Positions 3,602 to 12,108 of a DNA stretch of 64,000 nt are shown one piece after another. The notes below the pieces were generated by a model. That model saw only the letters and a list, made by a program, of their open reading frames with translations, ran no database searches and was not told the DNA's origin. The stretch's first letter is position 1. Each line of letters begins with the position of its first letter. The DNA lies in NCBI RefSeq assembly GCF_012913485.1, contig NZ_CP051774.1:4898001-4962000 (forward strand), given 5' to 3'. A program made the translations under genes and the position numbers. This DNA is from Luteolibacter luteus (lineage in GTDB: Bacteria > Verrucomicrobiota > Verrucomicrobiia > Verrucomicrobiales > Akkermansiaceae).

Positions 3602-5290
3602 TTACTCCACGGTGAACCACTGAACCTCCACGCGCCGGTTGAGATCAGGATTCTTGCCTGCAGGTTCTTCCCAGCCACGGCCGACGACTTCGAGGCGGTC
3701 CGGGGTGATGTCGGGATACTTCTCGACCAAGCGTTTCTTCACTTCCTCCGCGCGCTGGGTGGAGAGCTCCATGGCTTTCAAAGACATCTTGCGGAGAAAG
3801 GCTTCGCCTTGCTTGCGGAAGCTCTCCTTTTGCATGTCGTCCACGTGGCCCCGCAGCAGGATCATCGAGCCGGGTGAGACTCCGAGGAGGTGATTCACGT
3901 TCGAGAGGAAATCGTGGTTCTCCTTCTTGTTCATATCCAGTTCCGCGCTGTTCGGCAGGAAGTAGAAGCGGATGTCGCGGGTAAGCAGCGGGTCCTGCTC
4001 GATGGGGGCCTGCTCGCTGGTCTTGATCGGCTTGATGGAGGCAACTTGGGAAGAGAGCGTCCCTTCCTTCTCCAAAGCTTCGAGCGCCTTGGTATCGGCG
4101 AAGAAAGAGGCCGCCACCGGTGAGGGCTGGAGCTCGGAACCGTAGGCGAGGTTCGCCGTCTGGAAGACGGACGCGAAGGATCCGGCTGCATCGATCGCGC
4201 CGCGGAAAAATGCCAGGTTCTCAGGTAGATTGGAAAGGTGGACCTTCGCCAATTCCTGACGGGTGCTCTCTACGGTCCACTCGTATTGCTTGAAGGCGGT
4301 GGCGATCGTCTGCAGGTGGGGCTCGGGATTCGCACGCACGCGATCGTTGAAAAGCAGCATGCCTTCCACGATCTTTTGCACGATCTCCGGCTTGGCTTGG
4401 GCGAAGCCCTTGTTGAACACGAGGATATCCGCGATCACCAGCAGGTTTCGATTGTCCACAAGTTGGCGGGCATCACCGCCGGACTGCTCCACGATCTCCG
4501 TGGTTTTAGGGGCCCACGTCACGCAGCCATCGAGTTGATGGCCGCCTGCCTTGAGATCGGCAAGGAAGGCATCTCCGGCATCAAAAGCGTCTTCGAGGAA
4601 GACGAGGTTCACGGCCTCGGGATCCCGAGGGAGTTCGGGACCATCGAGACGCTTTACCGGCAGCCCGGCTTCTTGGGCTAGATAGCGGATAAAGAATTCG
4701 GCCTCGCTAAAGGGGGCCGTGGCGATGGTTTTCCCCTTCAGGTCGTTCACCCGCTTGATGTCCTTCCGCACGATGATGCCGTCGGCACCGCGGGACCATG
4801 AGACTTGGGCGGGCACCACGCACTGCCATTGGCGGCCGTAGTTTGAGAGCACGTCCACGGTGGTGGCGGTAGCGGCGAACTTGCCGTCCTGAAGATCCGC
4901 CCAAGAGTCTTCCTCGCTGAGGGTGATCTTCAGCTTGAAGCCCGCATTCTTGGCGAACCAAGAGTTGTCATTCGGTTCGAGACCGCCATTGGCCACGATG
5001 AGGCCGGCATAGCCCGCGTACTCGGAGAGGTTGACGGTGATGATCTCATTTTGGGGCGTATAAGGGCGGGGAGAGGGGAGTTGCGGAGCTTTCCCCGGCG
5101 CGATGAAATCGAAGGAGGAAACCGGGGATTCCGCCTGATCTGCGGAAGCGTCCGAGGCCCGGGTTGCTTCGCTCGCATGGCTGCCCGACCCGTGGTCGCG
5201 CTGGTCTTTCTTCCCGAGCATCCTCGTCACCGCAAATCCTGCGAGGAGCAGGACGATGACAGTGAATACGATTTTTCCGAGCTTGGTCAT
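3602..5290 (-). CDS. Substrate-binding protein fused to an OmpA peptidoglycan-binding domain
   Basis: The protein has 562 residues from ATG 5290; an in-frame ATG at 5305 is also possible. Residues 1-26 form an uncleaved membrane anchor (KIVFTVIVLLLAGFAV). Residues about 70-390 resemble the periplasmic substrate-binding fold of NMT1/nitrate-sulfonate ABC systems, including EDSWADLQDGKFAATATT and the DLKGKTIATAPFSEAEFFI stretch. Residues about 430-560 are an OmpA C-terminal domain: GHVDD, STQRAEEVKKRL and a final NPDLNRRVEVQ. No ABC permease or ATPase lies nearby, so sensing or tethering is more likely than transport. The ligand is unknown. The coiled-coil gene follows after 90 bases. Confidence 0.82.
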   Translation of the reverse strand: MTKLGKIVFTVIVLLLAGFAVTRMLGKKDQRDHGSGSHASEATRASDASADQAESPVSSFDFIAPGKAPQLPSPRPYTPQNEIITVNLSEYAGYAGLIVANGGLEPNDNSWFAKNAGFKLKITLSEEDSWADLQDGKFAATATTVDVLSNYGRQWQCVVPAQVSWSRGADGIIVRKDIKRVNDLKGKTIATAPFSEAEFFIRYLAQEAGLPVKRLDGPELPRDPEAVNLVFLEDAFDAGDAFLADLKAGGHQLDGCVTWAPKTTEIVEQSGGDARQLVDNRNLLVIADILVFNKGFAQAKPEIVQKIVEGMLLFNDRVRANPEPHLQTIATAFKQYEWTVESTRQELAKVHLSNLPENLAFFRGAIDAAGSFASVFQTANLAYGSELQPSPVAASFFADTKALEALEKEGTLSSQVASIKPIKTSEQAPIEQDPLLTRDIRFYFLPNSAELDMNKKENHDFLSNVNHLLGVSPGSMILLRGHVDDMQKESFRKQGEAFLRKMSLKAMELSTQRAEEVKKRLVEKYPDITPDRLEVVGRGWEEPAGKNPDLNRRVEVQWFTVE

Positions 5291-5462
5291 GATGTCGGGG
5301 AGCATGGACCGGAATGGTGACCGGGTGCCATGGGAAAATGAACCCGAGTGTGGAAGGGGCAGCGGCGGTCACCGGTCATTGGAAAGGAACTCAATTTGTC
5401 ATTTGTGGGAAAACGGAGGCGTGCTTTGTTAGGCGCTGCCTCTGTGGGCAGACAGCTCCCCC

Positions 5463-6389
5463 ATGAACCCCTCTGATTCAAAGGTAAGCCCGAAACGGGT
5501 CGATTGGCCCAAAGTCGATGCCCTGCCTGACATCAGCTACCGGCAACTGGAGGTCTTCAGCATGGTTTGCCGGGAGCGATCTTACGCGAATGCCGCCGTG
5601 GAACTCCATAGTACCCGCGCCAACATCAAAAGGGTCTGCAAGGAATTCGAAGATGCCGTTGGAAGACCTCTGTTCGAAGAGGCTCAGGGCCGGTCCCTCG
5701 TGCTGACGCCTTTCGCCGCGGATCTTTTAGCCTACGTCAGTCCGCTTTCCCGGGTATTGAGAAAGCTGGGAGACGGAGTGCGCGGGCTGCACGAAGCCGG
5801 GCGGATCCTGAAATTTGCGGCAGCCGGGGAGTTCTTTCGTGGAGGGCTTTTCGCGGATTTCCTGGCGACCTTGCAGATTGCCGATCTTTTCCGTTCGTGT
5901 TTTCTCCGGATCGAGGTGAAGCGTTTCCGGCCGGCACTGTTGAATGCGGAGTGCGACGTGTATTTTGGGATTGGGCTTGATGGAGCGGATCGGTTGGATG
6001 CCGTAGATCTGGGACCCGTGCCATGGGTGATCCTCGGGGGGGAAGCAGCTCCCGGGGGACCGTCGGACTTGCAAGGGTGCGAATGGTGGATCGCGGAGGC
6101 AGGGGAATCCGGCGCGGCAAATGGCTTGCTCGAAGACTTTCGCAAAGCGGGCGCACAAGGCGGGTCTGTGCTGCCGGAAGCCCAATCGCTCCAGTGGTTG
6201 GCGAATCCCGCCCTGATTCCCGCGGATGTTTTGTTTTTTGCTCCCGATATCGCGGTCGGACTCAAGGGGCGCCAGGCGGGAAATTGGCCCACCTATCGGT
6301 TGACCGCCTGCCTCCGGCGAAATCATCCCTATGCAGAGTTGAAGCCTCGTCTCATGGCGGCGGCCAACGGAAACGACCATGGACATTGA
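5463..6389 (+). CDS. LysR-type transcriptional regulator with divergent helix-turn-helix
   Basis: The 308-residue protein has a LysR-like N-terminus: YRQLEVFSMVCRERSYANAA, then RANIKRVCKEFEDAVGRPLF and LTPFAADLL. The recognition helix carries STRANIKRV where typical members have SQPAVSRQI, so DNA specificity is probably unusual. The C-terminal half is a degraded-looking effector domain. The gene is divergent from the substrate-binding/OmpA gene across 172 bases. It overlaps the next LysR gene by 11 bases, so the two are translationally linked. Confidence 0.78.
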   Translation: MNPSDSKVSPKRVDWPKVDALPDISYRQLEVFSMVCRERSYANAAVELHSTRANIKRVCKEFEDAVGRPLFEEAQGRSLVLTPFAADLLAYVSPLSRVLRKLGDGVRGLHEAGRILKFAAAGEFFRGGLFADFLATLQIADLFRSCFLRIEVKRFRPALLNAECDVYFGIGLDGADRLDAVDLGPVPWVILGGEAAPGGPSDLQGCEWWIAEAGESGAANGLLEDFRKAGAQGGSVLPEAQSLQWLANPALIPADVLFFAPDIAVGLKGRQAGNWPTYRLTACLRRNHPYAELKPRLMAAANGNDHGH

Positions 6390-7317
6390 TCTCAACAGCC
6401 TCTTGGTCTTCCGTCATCTCGCGGAAACCGGGAGTTTCACCGAGACCGGCAAACACTGGGGAATGTCCCAGCCTTCGGTAAGCCTCACCATCTCGAAGTT
6501 GGAGTCTGCGATCGGGTTGGTGCTTTTCGAGCGATCGCCTACCGGAGCAAAATTGACCTCGGCGGGATCCGCTTTCCTGAGCCATGCAAATGGCGTTTGT
6601 TCGGCCTATCTCGAATTTATCGATGGGATCCGGCGCTTGGACCGGCGCATGGATCATCAGGTTCTGGTTGCCGTGGATGCCTCCTATTTCGGCCGGATCC
6701 TCAGGGAAAAGATTGAAGATGGCTTTTTGCCCGAGTGGCCTGGATCAAAGCTCCGCTTCTGCGAGAGTGACGGGCGATGGGGCGAGTCCTTGGAAGCGGC
6801 GCGTTGCGATGTGGTCTTGGCCGGACGCTTTCTTCGTGCCGGCTTGTCGGCGGGAATCCAAGAAGCGGTCGTCCGAAGGGAGCGGGGAATTACTGTCGCA
6901 TGGAATCCGAGTTTCTATCCCTTTGATTCGGAGAATTTCAGTTTTCCGGAGGTGCTTCGTGGCACGGTGCTTGTCCCGGATAGGCGGGTTGTTACCGGTT
7001 TTAGCCCCTTCTTGTTGCGGTGGTGCGAGGAGGCTTATGGGATCCAGCCCGCGAATTTGATCAGCTTTCCTACTGAAACCGAGGCGGCCGCGGCCTGCCG
7101 CGCAGGCTTGGGAGTGTTGCTTGCTCCCGGTGATGTGATGTCGCGTTTGGGGGACGGTTCGGAGGAGTTGGTCCACGTCAGGACTTTTGAGTTCCTCCTG
7201 CCGGAAGCCTTCACGGTCGCGGTTTATTGCCGGAGTGATGAGGAGTCGAAGGAGGTGCTGGAAGTCGCCGCGACCATGACGAAGCTCGGCCGGAAGCTCT
7301 TCCTGAAAGATTTATAG
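6379..7317 (+). CDS. LysR-type transcriptional regulator
   Basis: This 312-residue protein is a canonical LysR N-terminus: LNSLLVFRHLAETGSFTETG, then MSQPSVSLTISKLESAIG and LVLFERSPTGAKLTSAG (residues about 5-65). The effector-binding domain follows to the end. Its ATG lies inside the last codons of the upstream LysR gene, indicating translational coupling. The pair may heterodimerise or control the neighbouring genes; no target can be named. A weak CCCAT/ATGGG stem lies just after the stop. Confidence 0.88.
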   Translation: MDIDLNSLLVFRHLAETGSFTETGKHWGMSQPSVSLTISKLESAIGLVLFERSPTGAKLTSAGSAFLSHANGVCSAYLEFIDGIRRLDRRMDHQVLVAVDASYFGRILREKIEDGFLPEWPGSKLRFCESDGRWGESLEAARCDVVLAGRFLRAGLSAGIQEAVVRRERGITVAWNPSFYPFDSENFSFPEVLRGTVLVPDRRVVTGFSPFLLRWCEEAYGIQPANLISFPTETEAAAACRAGLGVLLAPGDVMSRLGDGSEELVHVRTFEFLLPEAFTVAVYCRSDEESKEVLEVAATMTKLGRKLFLKDL

Positions 7318-7381: not shown

Positions 7382-8065
7382 GTGATCGATCTTCGGAGAA
7401 TGCAGGCGTCAGCGAACGGGTTTTCGGATGAGCGCTTCGATCTTCTCAGCGACCTGAAGTTCCTGATGGTCGCGTATCTTTCGGAAGCTTTGAAGGAACC
7501 GAACGTTGCGGTTCTTTCTCCGACGATGGCCGGGATGCTGGCGGTTTATCTCGACGACGAGAAGGATGGGATCGCGGTTCTTCGGGACTTGGGAGTCGAG
7601 GCTGGGCTGGCGATTGCACTGCCGCCCCGCATCAACTTGCGTCAGGGCTTCTCCGCGCTGGGGAAGGAGGCGGGTATCGACGACTTCAATCCATTCTCTT
7701 CCGAAGCGGCGTTGCTGACTGGTGCCCTGATCATGAATTCACTGAGCCAGGCCGTAATCGCGGCATGGCTGTGCGAAAAGGATTTCGAAACCGGACAGAC
7801 GGCCTTGCTGCGAATGCTTGCGAACGATTCGCGCTTCGAGGGGATGCTGAGTGGCGCGATGTCTTTCCTCGGCTCTTCGGCCGAAGAACGGGCCTTGGAA
7901 TTGCAGGCATTGATCTGTGGACCCTTCGTGAAGATGGGGAGCGGCGAGCGGCTTTGGAGCTTCAGCTTGCTGCAAACGGCGATCGTCCGTCTCGCCTGTG
8001 GCGGTCAAGGGCGTGAGGCCGGCGGCTTCTTCCCGGATGGGATGAGCGGCAGGGCTCGGACATGA
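7382..8065 (+). CDS. Unknown soluble protein
   Basis: The frame begins at GTG 7382 (227 residues). ATG 7400, with a GGAG just before it, is an alternative that removes six residues. The protein is mostly helical and soluble, with no signal peptide. It has Ala/Leu-rich stretches such as AALLTGALIMNSLSQAVIAA and an alternating acidic/hydrophobic pattern early on. I recognise no family. The gene follows the LysR pair by 64 bases and may belong to that unit. It ends at a strong bidirectional stem-loop. Confidence 0.65.
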   Translation: MIDLRRMQASANGFSDERFDLLSDLKFLMVAYLSEALKEPNVAVLSPTMAGMLAVYLDDEKDGIAVLRDLGVEAGLAIALPPRINLRQGFSALGKEAGIDDFNPFSSEAALLTGALIMNSLSQAVIAAWLCEKDFETGQTALLRMLANDSRFEGMLSGAMSFLGSSAEERALELQALICGPFVKMGSGERLWSFSLLQTAIVRLACGGQGREAGGFFPDGMSGRART

Positions 8066-8287: not shown

Positions 8288-8395
8288 GGCTCGGAGAGGT
8301 CGGTATCCATAGATAGCGCAGATCCGCGAAATCTCCACTTTGTTTCGGAACGGGCGGAGGGGAAGGGGTGGCGCTGGATTTTTCCCGCGGGCCGT

Positions 8396-8411
8396 CATGT
8401 TCCCGTCATTT
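8396..8411 (+). promoter_or_regulatory. Candidate response-regulator operator A (11-bp-spaced direct repeat)
   Basis: GTCAT at 8396-8400 is repeated at 8407-8411, one helical turn apart, giving GTCATGTTCCCGTCAT. Downstream, ACG at +5 to +7 and CTA at +10 to +12 after the second half-site are also found after site B (9467-9482), so a TA-containing -10 element may lie 10 bases downstream. The layout is like PhoB/OmpR class II sites overlapping the -35. The ATG of the DUF3616 gene is 41 bases beyond the site. Confidence 0.55.
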
Positions 8412-8452
8412 TCACGAGCTAGTCCTTCCGGTGTTCCTACGGGAAGACGCTC

Positions 8453-9451
8453 ATGAAAATCACCACACGCATTTTCGGAACACTCGCGCTGGCGATGCTG
8501 CCGCTCGCCTCAAAGGCCGAAGGAATCCACCGCATGGAATTCCTCCCGGACGAATGGCATCTGGCCGGGTTTGAAAACTCGCTCGACCTGAGCGGAATCG
8601 CTGCGGCCAATCCCCAGCAATGCCTGGTTGGCAGCGATGAGTCCTTCTACATCCAGCCTGGGGTGATCGATCACGCCAAGAAGCGGATCGAGTCAAAGCG
8701 TCCGATCGCTCTTTCGATCCAGAATACCGGAAAGGGTGGTATGGAAGTGGACATCGAGGGGGTAGCCTTCTCACCGGAGGACCAAGCCTACTATGTCGTC
8801 GGCTCCCACGGTCTCGGGAAGAAGAAGGGAGACTTCCAGCCGGACCGGCATGCGGTTTATCAAGTGCCGGTCGATCAGGGCGGCAAGGTGCTGAGGGATA
8901 AAATCCGCCGCACCAGCTTGCTGCCATGGCTGGAAAAGACGCCGGTGCTGGAGGATCACGTGAAGCAGCCGCTCCAGCAGAATGGCCTGAACATCGAGGG
9001 CCTCACCTACGCAAAGGGAAAGCTTTTCTTCGGCTTGCGGGCTCCAAACAAGAACGGCCGGGGCTTCGTGATCGAGTTGGCTCCGAACGATCTTTTTACG
9101 GGGAAGCCCGGCAAGCTCCAGGTCCATGACATTTCGATTCCGAAGGGCCGGGGCATCCGGGAAATCGCAGCAGTAAAGGATGGGTTCATCATTCTGTCGG
9201 GAAACGCCAGCGCCGAGGCTTCAAAGAAGATCCCGGTGACGATGGCTCCCGGTCCGGATGATCGCTTCGATGTCTATTTCTGGAACGGCACGGATGCCTC
9301 CGACTGCGTGAAGCTCGGCAGTCTGCCGCAGAATGGAGGCAAGGCGGAAGCCCTGTTGATTCTAGAGGACATGCGAGACCACGTGGACATGCTCGTCATT
9401 TTCGACGGCTTGCAGGGAGGCGAACCGATGACCGTCCGCTTCCACCGCTGA
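8453..9451 (+). CDS. Secreted DUF3616 protein
   Basis: The 332-residue protein has a signal peptide, MKITTRIFGTLALAMLPLAS, cleaved near KAEG. The mature region matches the DUF3616 pattern: an opening SLDLSGIAA segment, then DIEGVAFSPEDQAYYVVGSH and NIEGLTYAKGKLFFGLRAP, which read as beta-propeller blades. The molecular role of the family is unknown to me. It heads a plus-strand group with the PepSY protein and a two-component system, and shares with the PepSY gene a candidate operator at nearly the same distance from the start. That makes it a likely output of the downstream regulator. Confidence 0.82.
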   Translation: MKITTRIFGTLALAMLPLASKAEGIHRMEFLPDEWHLAGFENSLDLSGIAAANPQQCLVGSDESFYIQPGVIDHAKKRIESKRPIALSIQNTGKGGMEVDIEGVAFSPEDQAYYVVGSHGLGKKKGDFQPDRHAVYQVPVDQGGKVLRDKIRRTSLLPWLEKTPVLEDHVKQPLQQNGLNIEGLTYAKGKLFFGLRAPNKNGRGFVIELAPNDLFTGKPGKLQVHDISIPKGRGIREIAAVKDGFIILSGNASAEASKKIPVTMAPGPDDRFDVYFWNGTDASDCVKLGSLPQNGGKAEALLILEDMRDHVDMLVIFDGLQGGEPMTVRFHR

Positions 9452-9466
9452 GAAAGGCCGCGCCAG

Positions 9467-9482
9467 ATCATCATCCCGTCAT
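9467..9482 (+). promoter_or_regulatory. Candidate response-regulator operator B (11-bp-spaced direct repeat)
   Basis: ATCATCATCCCGTCAT matches site A (8396-8411) at 13 of 16 positions. The half-sites ATCAT (9467-9471) and GTCAT (9478-9482) are 11 bases apart. The same ACG and CTA positions follow as at site A. The PepSY gene starts 44 bases beyond the site, against 41 at site A. Confidence 0.55.
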
Positions 9483-9526
9483 GGAGACGGACTACCTTTG
9501 AGAACAAATCAAACAATACCAAGATC

Positions 9527-9997
9527 ATGAAGACCATCGCAACCATCAGTGTCCTCGCCCTTGCCACCTCGTTCGCGAGTGCTCAGACCCAGCGTCGTGA
9601 AATCCGCCTCGCCGATTGCCCGCAGGCTGTCCAGTCCACGATTCAGAGCAATGCCCGGGGCGGCCATATCGATGAAGTCGATTTCATCAGCATCGACGGC
9701 AAGGAGATCTACATCGCGGAAGTGGATTTGCCGCGTGACCGCGACTTGAAGGTTTATGTCTCCGGCAATGGCACCTTGTCGAAGACGCTGGAAGACATCG
9801 CCCTGCGTGAGGCACCGGAAGCGGTCCGCAATGCGGTGCAGGGACTGGGTGGCACTGTCGATGATGTGGATAAGGAAATCGCCGGCCAAGTGGTCACCTA
9901 TCATGTGGAGATCGAACGCCACGGAGCCCGCGATCTCGACGTGGTCGTGTCGTCGGATGGCACGATCCTGAGCCAGACCGAGGACGCCGACGACTGA
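9527..9997 (+). CDS. Periplasmic PepSY-like protein (two repeats)
   Basis: The 156-residue protein starts with a signal peptide, MKTIATISVLALATSFASA, cleaved before QTQRR. Two similar halves follow: QAVQSTIQ...EIYIAEVDLPRDRDLKVYVS and EAVRNAVQ...VVTYHVEIERHGARDLDVVVS. Each has the helix-plus-beta-hairpin pattern of PepSY/BLIP-like proteins and ends in a DG-containing turn. Small periplasmic PepSY proteins are often encoded beside OmpR-type two-component systems, as here, and may modulate the sensor. A perfect hairpin separates it from the regulator gene. Confidence 0.8.
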   Translation: MKTIATISVLALATSFASAQTQRREIRLADCPQAVQSTIQSNARGGHIDEVDFISIDGKEIYIAEVDLPRDRDLKVYVSGNGTLSKTLEDIALREAPEAVRNAVQGLGGTVDDVDKEIAGQVVTYHVEIERHGARDLDVVVSSDGTILSQTEDADD

Positions 9998-10063: not shown

Positions 10064-10732
10064 ATGAGACTTTTGATCGTAGAAGATGCCTCCCGCCTGC
10101 GCGCCACGCTCGGGCAGGCGCTGACGCGGATGGGCCATGCTGTCGACCTCGCGGAGAATGGCGATGAGGGCGATATTATGGGGCGCACCACGAAGTATGA
10201 TGCGGTGGTGCTGGACCGGATGATGCCGGGAAAGGATGGGCTGGAGGTCTTGCGCGGCTGGCGACGCGATGGAATCGATACACCGGTCCTGCTGCTCACC
10301 GCGCTGGATGGGATTGAGGAAAAAGTCAGGGGACTCGGCGATGGCGCGGATGATTATCTGACGAAGCCCTTTGCCCTCGCGGAACTCGTCGCACGTCTGG
10401 AAGCGCTTTCCCGCCGCCGCTATGCGCAGCCGGATCCGAAGGTGAACGTCGGGCCGCTGGAGATCGACACAGCGGCCAAGGCGGTGAGACGGGAGGGGGA
10501 AGATATCTCTCTGACGGCCCGTGAATTCGCTCTCTTGGAATGCTTGGCGCGTCGGCCAGGCCAAGTCCTCAGCCGCGAACAAATCGAAGCCCAGCTCTAC
10601 GCCGAGCTGGACGGACCGCTGAGCAATGCGGTGGACTCCGCCATCTGTTCCCTGCGCCGGAAGGTCAGTCCGCCCGGCACTCCGCCGCTGATCCACACCC
10701 GCCGCGGATTGGGCTACGTGCTCGAAGCATGA
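10064..10732 (+). CDS. OmpR/PhoB-family response regulator
   Basis: From ATG 10064 (MRLLIVEDASRLRATLGQAL) the product has 222 residues. An ATG at 10049 would start within two bases of the hairpin and add five nonconserved residues. The receiver domain has the acidic pair E7/D8, phospho-acceptor D51 (AVVLDRMMPGKDG), and the lysine of DDYLTKPF near residue 100. The C-terminal winged helix (LTAREFALLECLARRPGQVL, then NAVDSAICSLRRK and a GLGYVL end) is of the OmpR type. It overlaps the kinase gene by 4 bases (ATGA). Confidence 0.93.
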   Translation: MRLLIVEDASRLRATLGQALTRMGHAVDLAENGDEGDIMGRTTKYDAVVLDRMMPGKDGLEVLRGWRRDGIDTPVLLLTALDGIEEKVRGLGDGADDYLTKPFALAELVARLEALSRRRYAQPDPKVNVGPLEIDTAAKAVRREGEDISLTAREFALLECLARRPGQVLSREQIEAQLYAELDGPLSNAVDSAICSLRRKVSPPGTPPLIHTRRGLGYVLEA

Positions 10733-12108
10733 TATCGATCCGCTGGCGCCTCACGATCCTCCTTTGCCTCGCGATGGGCACGCTGCTCGTCGCGACGGGT
10801 GTCGGGGTGTTCTTCGGGATGCGGCACATGCTGCGGGAGCAGTTTGATGCCACCCTGACGGCAAAGGCGACGGCGCTGATCACCGCCTCGGAGATCGACG
10901 ATGGGGAATTCGAGATCGATCTCACCGTCCAGGACTTCGCGGGCTTCGGCTCGGAGGATGGCGACTACTTTGAGATCCGCAGGATGAGTGGGGACGTGTT
11001 TCTTCGTTCGCCATCTTTGATTTCCGCGAAGATCGAGATCGGAAAGGAGGGGAAGCCGCCTAAGAACGACGAGGCGCGGATCCGGGAAGCCAAGCTCGGG
11101 GATGGTCGGCCTGCTCGCTTCTACATCCAGCGCTTTTATCCGAAGGACGACAAGAAGCGCCGCTACCAGGACCTTTTCCTGATCGTGGCCAGTCCTGTGC
11201 GTGGCTTGCAGATCCAGCTCGCGCTGCTGGCTACCGTGCTCGCGGTTGCCGGGAGCGCGGCCTTGCTGCTGATGGTTCCGGTGATCCGGCTCGGGATGGG
11301 GAGCGGCTTGCGACCGCTCGACAAGCTTTCCTCGGAGGTTCGGCAGATCCGCCCGGAGAACCTTCATCAGCGTCTCGCTACCGAAAAGCTGCCAGCTGAA
11401 CTGGTGCCGGTGGCGGAGAGCCTGAATGCCTGGCTCGGTCGGCTGGAGGCGTCGTTTGATCGCGAGCGCCGCTTTAGCAGTCACGCGGCGCATGAGTTGC
11501 GAACGCCATTGGCCGAGCTGAAGAGCATGGCGGAACTTGGAGCCATGTGGCCGGAGGAGGCGACACCGGAGCGCTGTGCCGAGATGGTGACGGTAGCGAA
11601 TGAGCTGGAAGCGCTCTTGGAGAAGCTCTCCTTGCTAGCCCGAGCGGACGCAGGGCGTCAGCCGGTGGAGAGGGAAGAGGTGAATCTGGAATCGAGCATC
11701 GGGTCGGTCATCTCCCGTCTGGAGGCGCGGGCTCAAGAGAAGGGGATTCGCTTCGATCGCCGCATCTCCGGAGACACGATCAGCACGGATCCGGTGCTGT
11801 GGACGACCATTCTGCAGAACCTTCTGGGGAATGCTGTGTCGCACGCTCCCGAGGGATCGGTGATCGCGATTGAAGCCTCGCCGCAAGGACTTGCAGTGAG
11901 CAATCCGGCACCGGACTTGGATCGGGAAGATCTGGAGAGGATCTTCGAGCGCTTCTGGCGGAAGGATGACTCGCACAGCGGCTACGGGCACTCGGGGCTG
12001 GGGATGTCCATCGTCAAGGCATGCGCCGGGCTGCTGGGTGCCGAGTGCAAGGCGAGCCTGGGCGAAAATGGTGTGTTCCGGGTTGAGCTCGGGGGGCGGG
12101 CGGCCTGA
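10729..12108 (+). CDS. Sensor histidine kinase
   Basis: The 459-residue partner of the response regulator starts at ATG 10729, overlapping the regulator stop. The helix at about 7-30 (LTILLCLAMGTLLVATGVGV) and a second one near 160-185 flank a periplasmic sensor domain of about 130 residues. A HAMP segment follows (RPLDKLSSEVRQIRPENLHQ). The phospho-accepting H255 lies in HAAHELRTPLAELKS. The ATPase has an N box (NLLGNAVSHAPEG) and a glycine box (GYGHSGLGMSI). The signal is unknown; the adjacent PepSY protein is a candidate periplasmic partner. Confidence 0.93.
   Translation: MISIRWRLTILLCLAMGTLLVATGVGVFFGMRHMLREQFDATLTAKATALITASEIDDGEFEIDLTVQDFAGFGSEDGDYFEIRRMSGDVFLRSPSLISAKIEIGKEGKPPKNDEARIREAKLGDGRPARFYIQRFYPKDDKKRRYQDLFLIVASPVRGLQIQLALLATVLAVAGSAALLLMVPVIRLGMGSGLRPLDKLSSEVRQIRPENLHQRLATEKLPAELVPVAESLNAWLGRLEASFDRERRFSSHAAHELRTPLAELKSMAELGAMWPEEATPERCAEMVTVANELEALLEKLSLLARADAGRQPVEREEVNLESSIGSVISRLEARAQEKGIRFDRRISGDTISTDPVLWTTILQNLLGNAVSHAPEGSVIAIEASPQGLAVSNPAPDLDREDLERIFERFWRKDDSHSGYGHSGLGMSIVKACAGLLGAECKASLGENGVFRVELGGRAA

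Follow-up and report, generated by a model that had tools for sequence, protein, structure and literature searches.

DbfQ, the PepSY protein of the DbfQRS module of Vibrio cholerae, acts upon the DbfS kinase; the excerpted text of the relevant study suggests that the operon is positively autoregulated (PMC12714742). Modules of this kind have been reported in several phyla, of which the excerpts name the Proteobacteria, Terrabacteria, and Fusobacteria, and BqsS and the PepSY genes (PA2658/PA2659) of the BqsRS/CarRS system of Pseudomonas aeruginosa are named there as well; neither "binding motif" nor "direct repeat" is used anywhere in that text (PMC12714742). As regards the DUF3616 family, excerpts of another study describe XAC2848/bdp7, a Xanthomonas protein from a biofilm/LPS-related mutant screen, which has the DUF3616 domain in common with the locus considered here, but differs in that the word PepSY is absent from that source (PMC3130047). 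Within the portions of the open-licence literature that were accessible to searching, neither the motif described below nor a link of DUF3616 to a two-component system was found. In the 15 papers listed among the 22 that matched our consensus strings, only the 11-base CCGTCATCTTC was represented, in a context that looks unrelated by title, and the 15-base forms were absent.

The locus under study is part of the window, by which we mean the whole stretch of 64,000 nucleotides of Luteolibacter luteus DNA that was analysed, and all coordinates refer to it unless otherwise indicated. A small secreted PepSY-like gene stands here beside the genes for a response regulator (RR) of the OmpR family and a sensor histidine kinase (HK), and the placement of such a gene directly before the RR and HK genes is shared with DbfQRS, as portrayed in the excerpted text (PMC12714742). 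In comparison with what those excerpts describe, this locus is distinguished by DUF3616, which is a near-constant co-target within the genus and in two genomes is present without PepSY. The locus resembles DbfQRS, which is the nearest studied module. A similar likeness exists to BqsRS/CarRS, where PepSY genes also adjoin a two-component system whose regulator, BqsR/CarR, is an OmpR-family RR; the CarR receiver structure is PDB 8gc6, and we take this CarR to be BqsR. The operator found here is unlike the BqsR box, GTTAAG-N6-GTTAAG, and we know of no DUF3616 protein associated with BqsRS/CarRS.

The DUF3616 gene (8453..9451, + strand) encodes a protein of 332 aa with a signal-peptide-like start by eye, which matched PF12275 with an E value of 1.3e-17 and 64.6 bits, the curated Pfam cut-off being 20.6. 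Its AlphaFold2 model (pLDDT 87.8) has a beta-propeller-like predicted fold, and many of the 50 listed matches of this model in Foldseek were WD40 or NHL propellers with TM values of 0.30–0.44; as judged from the model, the resemblance to beta-propellers is only generic. A comparison of the DUF3616 sequence with the PDB gave a single match, at chance level (E 0.12). The gene that follows (9527..9997, + strand) encodes a PepSY-like secreted protein of 156 aa, whose model (pLDDT 88.8) predicts two PepSY-like units, each consisting of a helix plus four strands. Although this protein itself had no match to a PepSY family in Pfam, in the alignment of its family PF11396 (PepSY_like) was matched by 6 of the 14 members and PF03413 (PepSY) by 5 of the 14 at E <= 0.1, with best values of 4.4e-9 and 9.9e-8, respectively. 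The RR gene (10064..10732, + strand; likely start 10064, frame open from 10049) was described in the original prediction as an OmpR-type regulator, and both the receiver domain (PF00072, E 9.3e-23) and the winged-helix Trans_reg_C domain (PF00486, E 3e-21) were indeed found. Matches to it at E <= 1e-72 were present in 33 of the 386 genomes of the order. The start of the HK gene (10729..12108, + strand), which carries 2CSK_N, HAMP, HisKA, and HATPase_c domains (Pfam), overlaps the RR stop codon.

Two short stretches, one before each of the DUF3616 and PepSY genes, had been proposed to be matching direct-repeat operators. The second of these was placed exactly, at 9467–9482, whereas the first, reported at 8396–8411, is actually located two bases earlier, at 8394–8409. 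Similarly, the distance of 44 bases from the second site to its gene (ATG at 9527) was confirmed, whereas that from the first site to the ATG at 8453 is 43 bases and not 41. Upon recounting, the two sites agree at 13/16 positions with half-sites spaced by 11 bases, both as claimed, and ACG and CTA are present at equal downstream offsets after both of them; within the 20 bases 3' of each site, 7/20 are identical. A resemblance of the two upstream regions by chance could be entertained on the basis of these regions alone, where a 13/16 match was obtained in 12/1500 base shuffles of both 100-nt regions. However, a match of this kind with offsets no more than 1 nt apart was obtained in 0/1500 shuffles and the site is also conserved in held-out genomes (see below), and the probability that we attach to chance is negligible.

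An alignment of 31 sites, which had been picked as sites beforehand and were aligned gap-free on their TCATs, gave an operator consensus of 22 bp, TCATCTTCSCG-TCATSTTCGSR, made up of two 11-bp repeats. Thus, the half-site spacing of 11 in the original 16-base pattern is retained, but the operator is longer than this pattern. The recurrence of TCAT every 11 bp corresponds to a direct repeat of the spacing seen in the OmpR/PhoB family (10–11 bp), and it is present at the target promoters. The first operator (TCATGTTCCCG TCATTTTCACG; 8395..8416, + strand), consisting of two 11-bp direct repeats, scores 30.1 on the 22-bp matrix and 28.3 when its own genome is left out, and it is conserved upstream of DUF3616 orthologues. 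The second (TCATCATCCCG TCATGGAGACG; 9468..9489, + strand), in which repeat 2 is weaker, scores 23.1 and 20.6 by the same measures and is conserved upstream of PepSY orthologues. In agreement with an earlier claim, a -10-like element is found about 10 bp after the second half-site, frequently as an extended -10 (Gn-TA). Among the 31 aligned sites, G at +23 and A at +26 are phase-locked with the repeats and each is present in 87%, while T at +25, the first base of the -10-like element, and T at +30 are weaker (45 and 55%, respectively). The putative element of the DUF3616 promoter, TAGTCC (8420..8425, + strand), has both G +23 and A +26; in that of the PepSY-RR-HK promoter, TACCTT (9493..9498, + strand), A +26 is present and G +23 is absent.

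At class II promoters of the OmpR/PhoB family (PhoB, PmrA/BasR, KdpE), two tandem repeats spaced by 11 bp replace the -35 box and are followed by a -10 element. The promoters described here are similar to these in having tandem 11-bp repeats in place of the -35 and then a -10-like element, but they differ in their half-site, which is TCATCTTCSCG. For mycobacterial PhoP, the excerpted literature describes 7-bp repeats with a 4-bp spacer (PMC4832192). By eye, our consensus shows no -35-like hexamer with appropriate spacing; the corresponding place falls within the first repeat and is unlike TTGACA. Because the repeats cover the -35 place and adjoin the -10-like element, a class II activator that recruits RNA polymerase is most likely, and in view of the lack of a -35-like hexamer in the consensus, such an activator seems to be needed.

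Based upon these characteristics, it is likely that both sites are operators of the downstream OmpR-family RR, which would act by class II activation upon a small autoregulated PepSY/DUF3616 regulon. According to this model, an RR dimer would bind the two tandem 11-bp repeats and the bound RR would recruit RNA polymerase, with the first operator driving DUF3616 and the second driving PepSY-RR-HK; as an operator stands before the latter genes, the system would be autoregulated, and PepSY may act on the kinase in the manner of DbfQ on DbfS. The regulon would be small, in keeping with the one or two strong sites that a genome usually has, which stand at genes encoding secreted DUF3616 proteins, secreted PepSY-like proteins or RRs. 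Binding of the RR at these sites is very probable in view of the motif, its conservation, position, and rarity, and its co-occurrence with the RR. These sequence comparisons also lend support to the original assignment of the operators to the neighbouring two-component system, within which RR binding and activation are the presumed steps. It is conceivable that the RR acts through the same operators as a repressor, which would occupy the promoter until a signal releases it, and the overlap of the repeats with the promoter region would suit steric repression of this kind. This is nevertheless unlikely, as at a consensus without a suitably spaced -35-like hexamer an activator seems to be needed, and dbfQRS, the nearest studied module, appears from the excerpted text to be positively autoregulated (PMC12714742).

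The conservation of these sites was examined in a first set of 97 genomes, including that of L. luteus, in which RRs showing 58–100% identity were treated as orthologues (17 genomes) and those showing 52–55% identity as a sister clade. A TCAT-N7-TCAT site was present before DUF3616, PepSY or RR at 15 of the 17 loci with an RR orthologue, these being related sequences whose sites are non-independent. A lack of conservation before DUF3616 and PepSY orthologues would have counted against the predicted operators; the motif was found to be conserved there in the families f1, f2, and f4, while in family f3 no site was detected at either of two loci (G060, and G114, which is cut by a contig end). The loci of G059 (RR identity 58%) and G060 (63%) contained no good site, with best scores of 10.9 and 8.2, respectively. 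In three genomes (G009, G011, and G016), DUF3616 has a site before it and the PepSY gene a short distance behind has none, and in G041, RR is the first gene and has its own site before it.

Sixteen genomes outside the first 97 provided a held-out set of 17 RR loci, and the matrix applied to it was trained on 22 first-set sites. A site scoring 16.0–32.9 was observed at 14 of these 17 loci; in an earlier pass over 14 of the 17, the consensus string had been found at 8/14. All 16 matches with scores of at least 13 at the held-out loci stand upstream of a gene, and the low-scoring sites (16–18) are supported by position as much as by score. In 6.6 Mb of shuffled sequence, 0 matches scoring at least 15 were obtained. 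Of the held-out loci that were missed, contig ends truncate those in G114 and G211 within or just before PepSY, and that in G196 is a genuine miss (best score 11.3). A scan of further contigs yielded two loci, one in Haloferula luteola and another on a MAG contig that is cut short and has no site in the part present.

A pattern that is common throughout the genome without positional bias would argue against an operator of a neighbouring system. In the 6.41-Mb genome of L. luteus, exact TCATNNTCCCGTCAT occurs twice, both times at this locus, and TCATNNTNNCRTCAT occurs three times, of which two are at this locus. Close matches are thus rare, but at two mismatches the pattern is common, with 83 + 83 matches versus 24 + 17 for a reversed control. 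When 30 of these 166 matches were scored on the 22-bp matrix, the next best central match after the two real sites (30.1 and 23.1) reached 13.1, and one further two-mismatch match, within long open frames, scored 18.0; the interpretation of the two-mismatch matches as a large regulon is unsupported by the 30/166 that were scored. Another search of this genome gave 13 matches, all of which were scored, and these included site 1, one strong intergenic match and the match of 18.0. The intergenic operator-like site (G000:C1:157670-157688, minus strand; L186, 1498-1519) scores 25.0 and faces the 3' end of an opposite-strand gene. This site and the match of 18.0 were rejected as targets, the former having no same-strand downstream gene and the latter lying under long open frames.

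When a 19-base pattern with one mismatch was searched for in the 17 genomes containing the RR, it was found at 44 places versus 2 for the reversed control. Sixteen of the 44 score at least 25 on the matrix and 15 of these 16 are at DUF3616, PepSY or RR genes. The separation at this score is incomplete (15/16) due to an off-locus match of 28.0 in G007 (L230; contig C6, ~123875), which falls within an opposite-strand open frame of 476 aa and is perhaps due to chance. One of the other 28 places is the site of an unlinked PepSY gene in G011 (leave-one-out score 24.1), and the remaining 27, mostly under long open frames, score up to 23.7 away from DUF3616, PepSY or RR genes. As such off-locus look-alikes are present in real genomes, shuffled or random sequence understates the true background. 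Strong sites are thus nearly confined to this locus, but weaker look-alikes are commoner than in random sequence. These counts also bear on whether the repeats could be a promoter for an alternative sigma factor instead of an operator, as the fixed spacing to the -10-like element might indicate. For such a promoter more strong sites per genome would be expected, the occurrence of the motif follows the RR gene, and the tandem 11-bp arrangement is that known for dimers of the OmpR family; we therefore consider a sigma factor promoter highly improbable.

The association of the site with the RR was also examined for DUF3616. A site (leave-one-genome-out score of at least 10) was present at 9/12 DUF3616 promoters from genomes with the RR and at 0/10 from genomes without it (Fisher p 4.6e-4); among the latter, the DUF3616 gene of G083 has a 12/15 consensus match, which the matrix rejects (-2.4). 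Weak leave-one-out scores were obtained for the DUF3616 sites of G012 (11.4) and G041 (6.7). In G003 and G041, a TCAT-N7-TCAT site is found at DUF3616 even though this gene and the RR are on separate contigs, and unlinked PepSY paralogues in G009 and G011 also carry one; the operator stays with its target gene even where this gene is away from the RR. Of 18 genomes of the genus, 9 contain both DUF3616 and the RR orthologue and the other 9 contain neither (p 4.1e-5, uncorrected for shared ancestry, and with two assemblies that are only 61 and 72% complete among the 18).

PepSY was present in 7 of the 9 genus genomes containing the RR, and in G006 its match covers residues 1–61 only. In G007 (L056) and G015 (L058), the gene order is DUF3616-RR-HK with the operator before DUF3616, and no PepSY was found in the genome; a genome search of G041 also gave no PepSY match. 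In the f2 and f4 genomes of the first set that contain the RR, PepSY is present and no match to DUF3616 was obtained. The proposal of a regulon coupling a secreted DUF3616 protein to PepSY sensing is supported in so far as conserved sites stand at both genes, but PepSY is not a constant member of it (G007, G015). Since DUF3616 accompanies the RR more closely than PepSY does in the genus (9/9 versus 7/9), the roles of both for the kinase become a direct question. One rather doubtful possibility is that the beta-propeller-like DUF3616 protein is secreted to serve the kinase as a partner in sensing or feedback, acting with PepSY or, in G007 and G015, in its place.

The close association with this RR is also relevant to the suggestion that another OmpR-family regulator, e.g., PhoB, binds the sites and that the neighbouring RR is incidental. 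The Pho box consists of 11-bp repeats with TGTCAT, which the unit CCGTCATCTTC resembles, and the DUF3616 protein is weakly similar to a phytase-like esterase (E 4.9e-4, below the cut-off). However, no site scoring at least 9 was found at either pstB locus of the genome (14 and 15 kb), a G directly before the first TCAT is not conserved, and the motif tracks this RR across genomes, all of which makes binding by PhoB or a similar regulator improbable. A Pho-box-like match of 11/13 is seen at one of the pstB loci, close to the point where porin and pstS diverge. Membership of the sites in the Pho regulon was rejected, as the pst loci are without them. Regulation by the neighbouring RR, which we favour, would mean that a PepSY two-component module of the Verrucomicrobiales has a small regulon and an operator open to testing, and the uncharacterised DUF3616 family would gain a regulatory context.

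Sister RRs showing 52–55% identity were identified by the RR search in G002, G014, G017, and G079 and as a second RR in G061, and all five of their loci have a site scoring at least 16; a sixth, showing 52% identity, is from G064, whose locus was chosen for its site. These loci are L168, L169, L170, L174, L175, and L176 for G002, G014, G017, G064, G079, and G061, respectively. The genes following the sister-clade sites encode a di-haem cytochrome c peroxidase in G002 and a PSCyt/PSD1 protein in G061 (Pfam), and weak matches below the cut-off were obtained to a cytochrome in G064 and to an EF-hand in G079. In G001, a DUF2202 protein, to which that of G014 is similar by eye, follows the site, and no RR is present in the stretch examined. 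In the recognition helix, as compared by eye among 40 aligned RRs, SNAVD is found in 33 and SNVVD in seven, viz. the six sister RRs and that of G196. As the same motif stands at the loci of the sister RR clade, where the targets are different, this type of operator is probably older than the partnership with DUF3616. If the DUF3616 protein were indeed a partner of the kinase, as considered above, the regulon would consist almost wholly of the system's own secreted signalling partners, and the sister clade would employ the same operator at genes for exported proteins, secreted cytochromes among them.

Some other genes were noted in the region of the window preceding DUF3616. A 567-aa protein encoded on the minus strand (3602–5305) looks, by eye from its translation, like the fusion of a substrate-binding domain with an OmpA-like C-terminus, and it is followed by two LysR-type genes (5463–7317), which are in tandem and overlap. 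The LysR pair is succeeded by a gene (7382–8065) for a 227-aa protein that has no match in Pfam. In G009 and G012, a relative of this protein is likewise located before DUF3616, and in G009 both LysR genes have relatives there as well.
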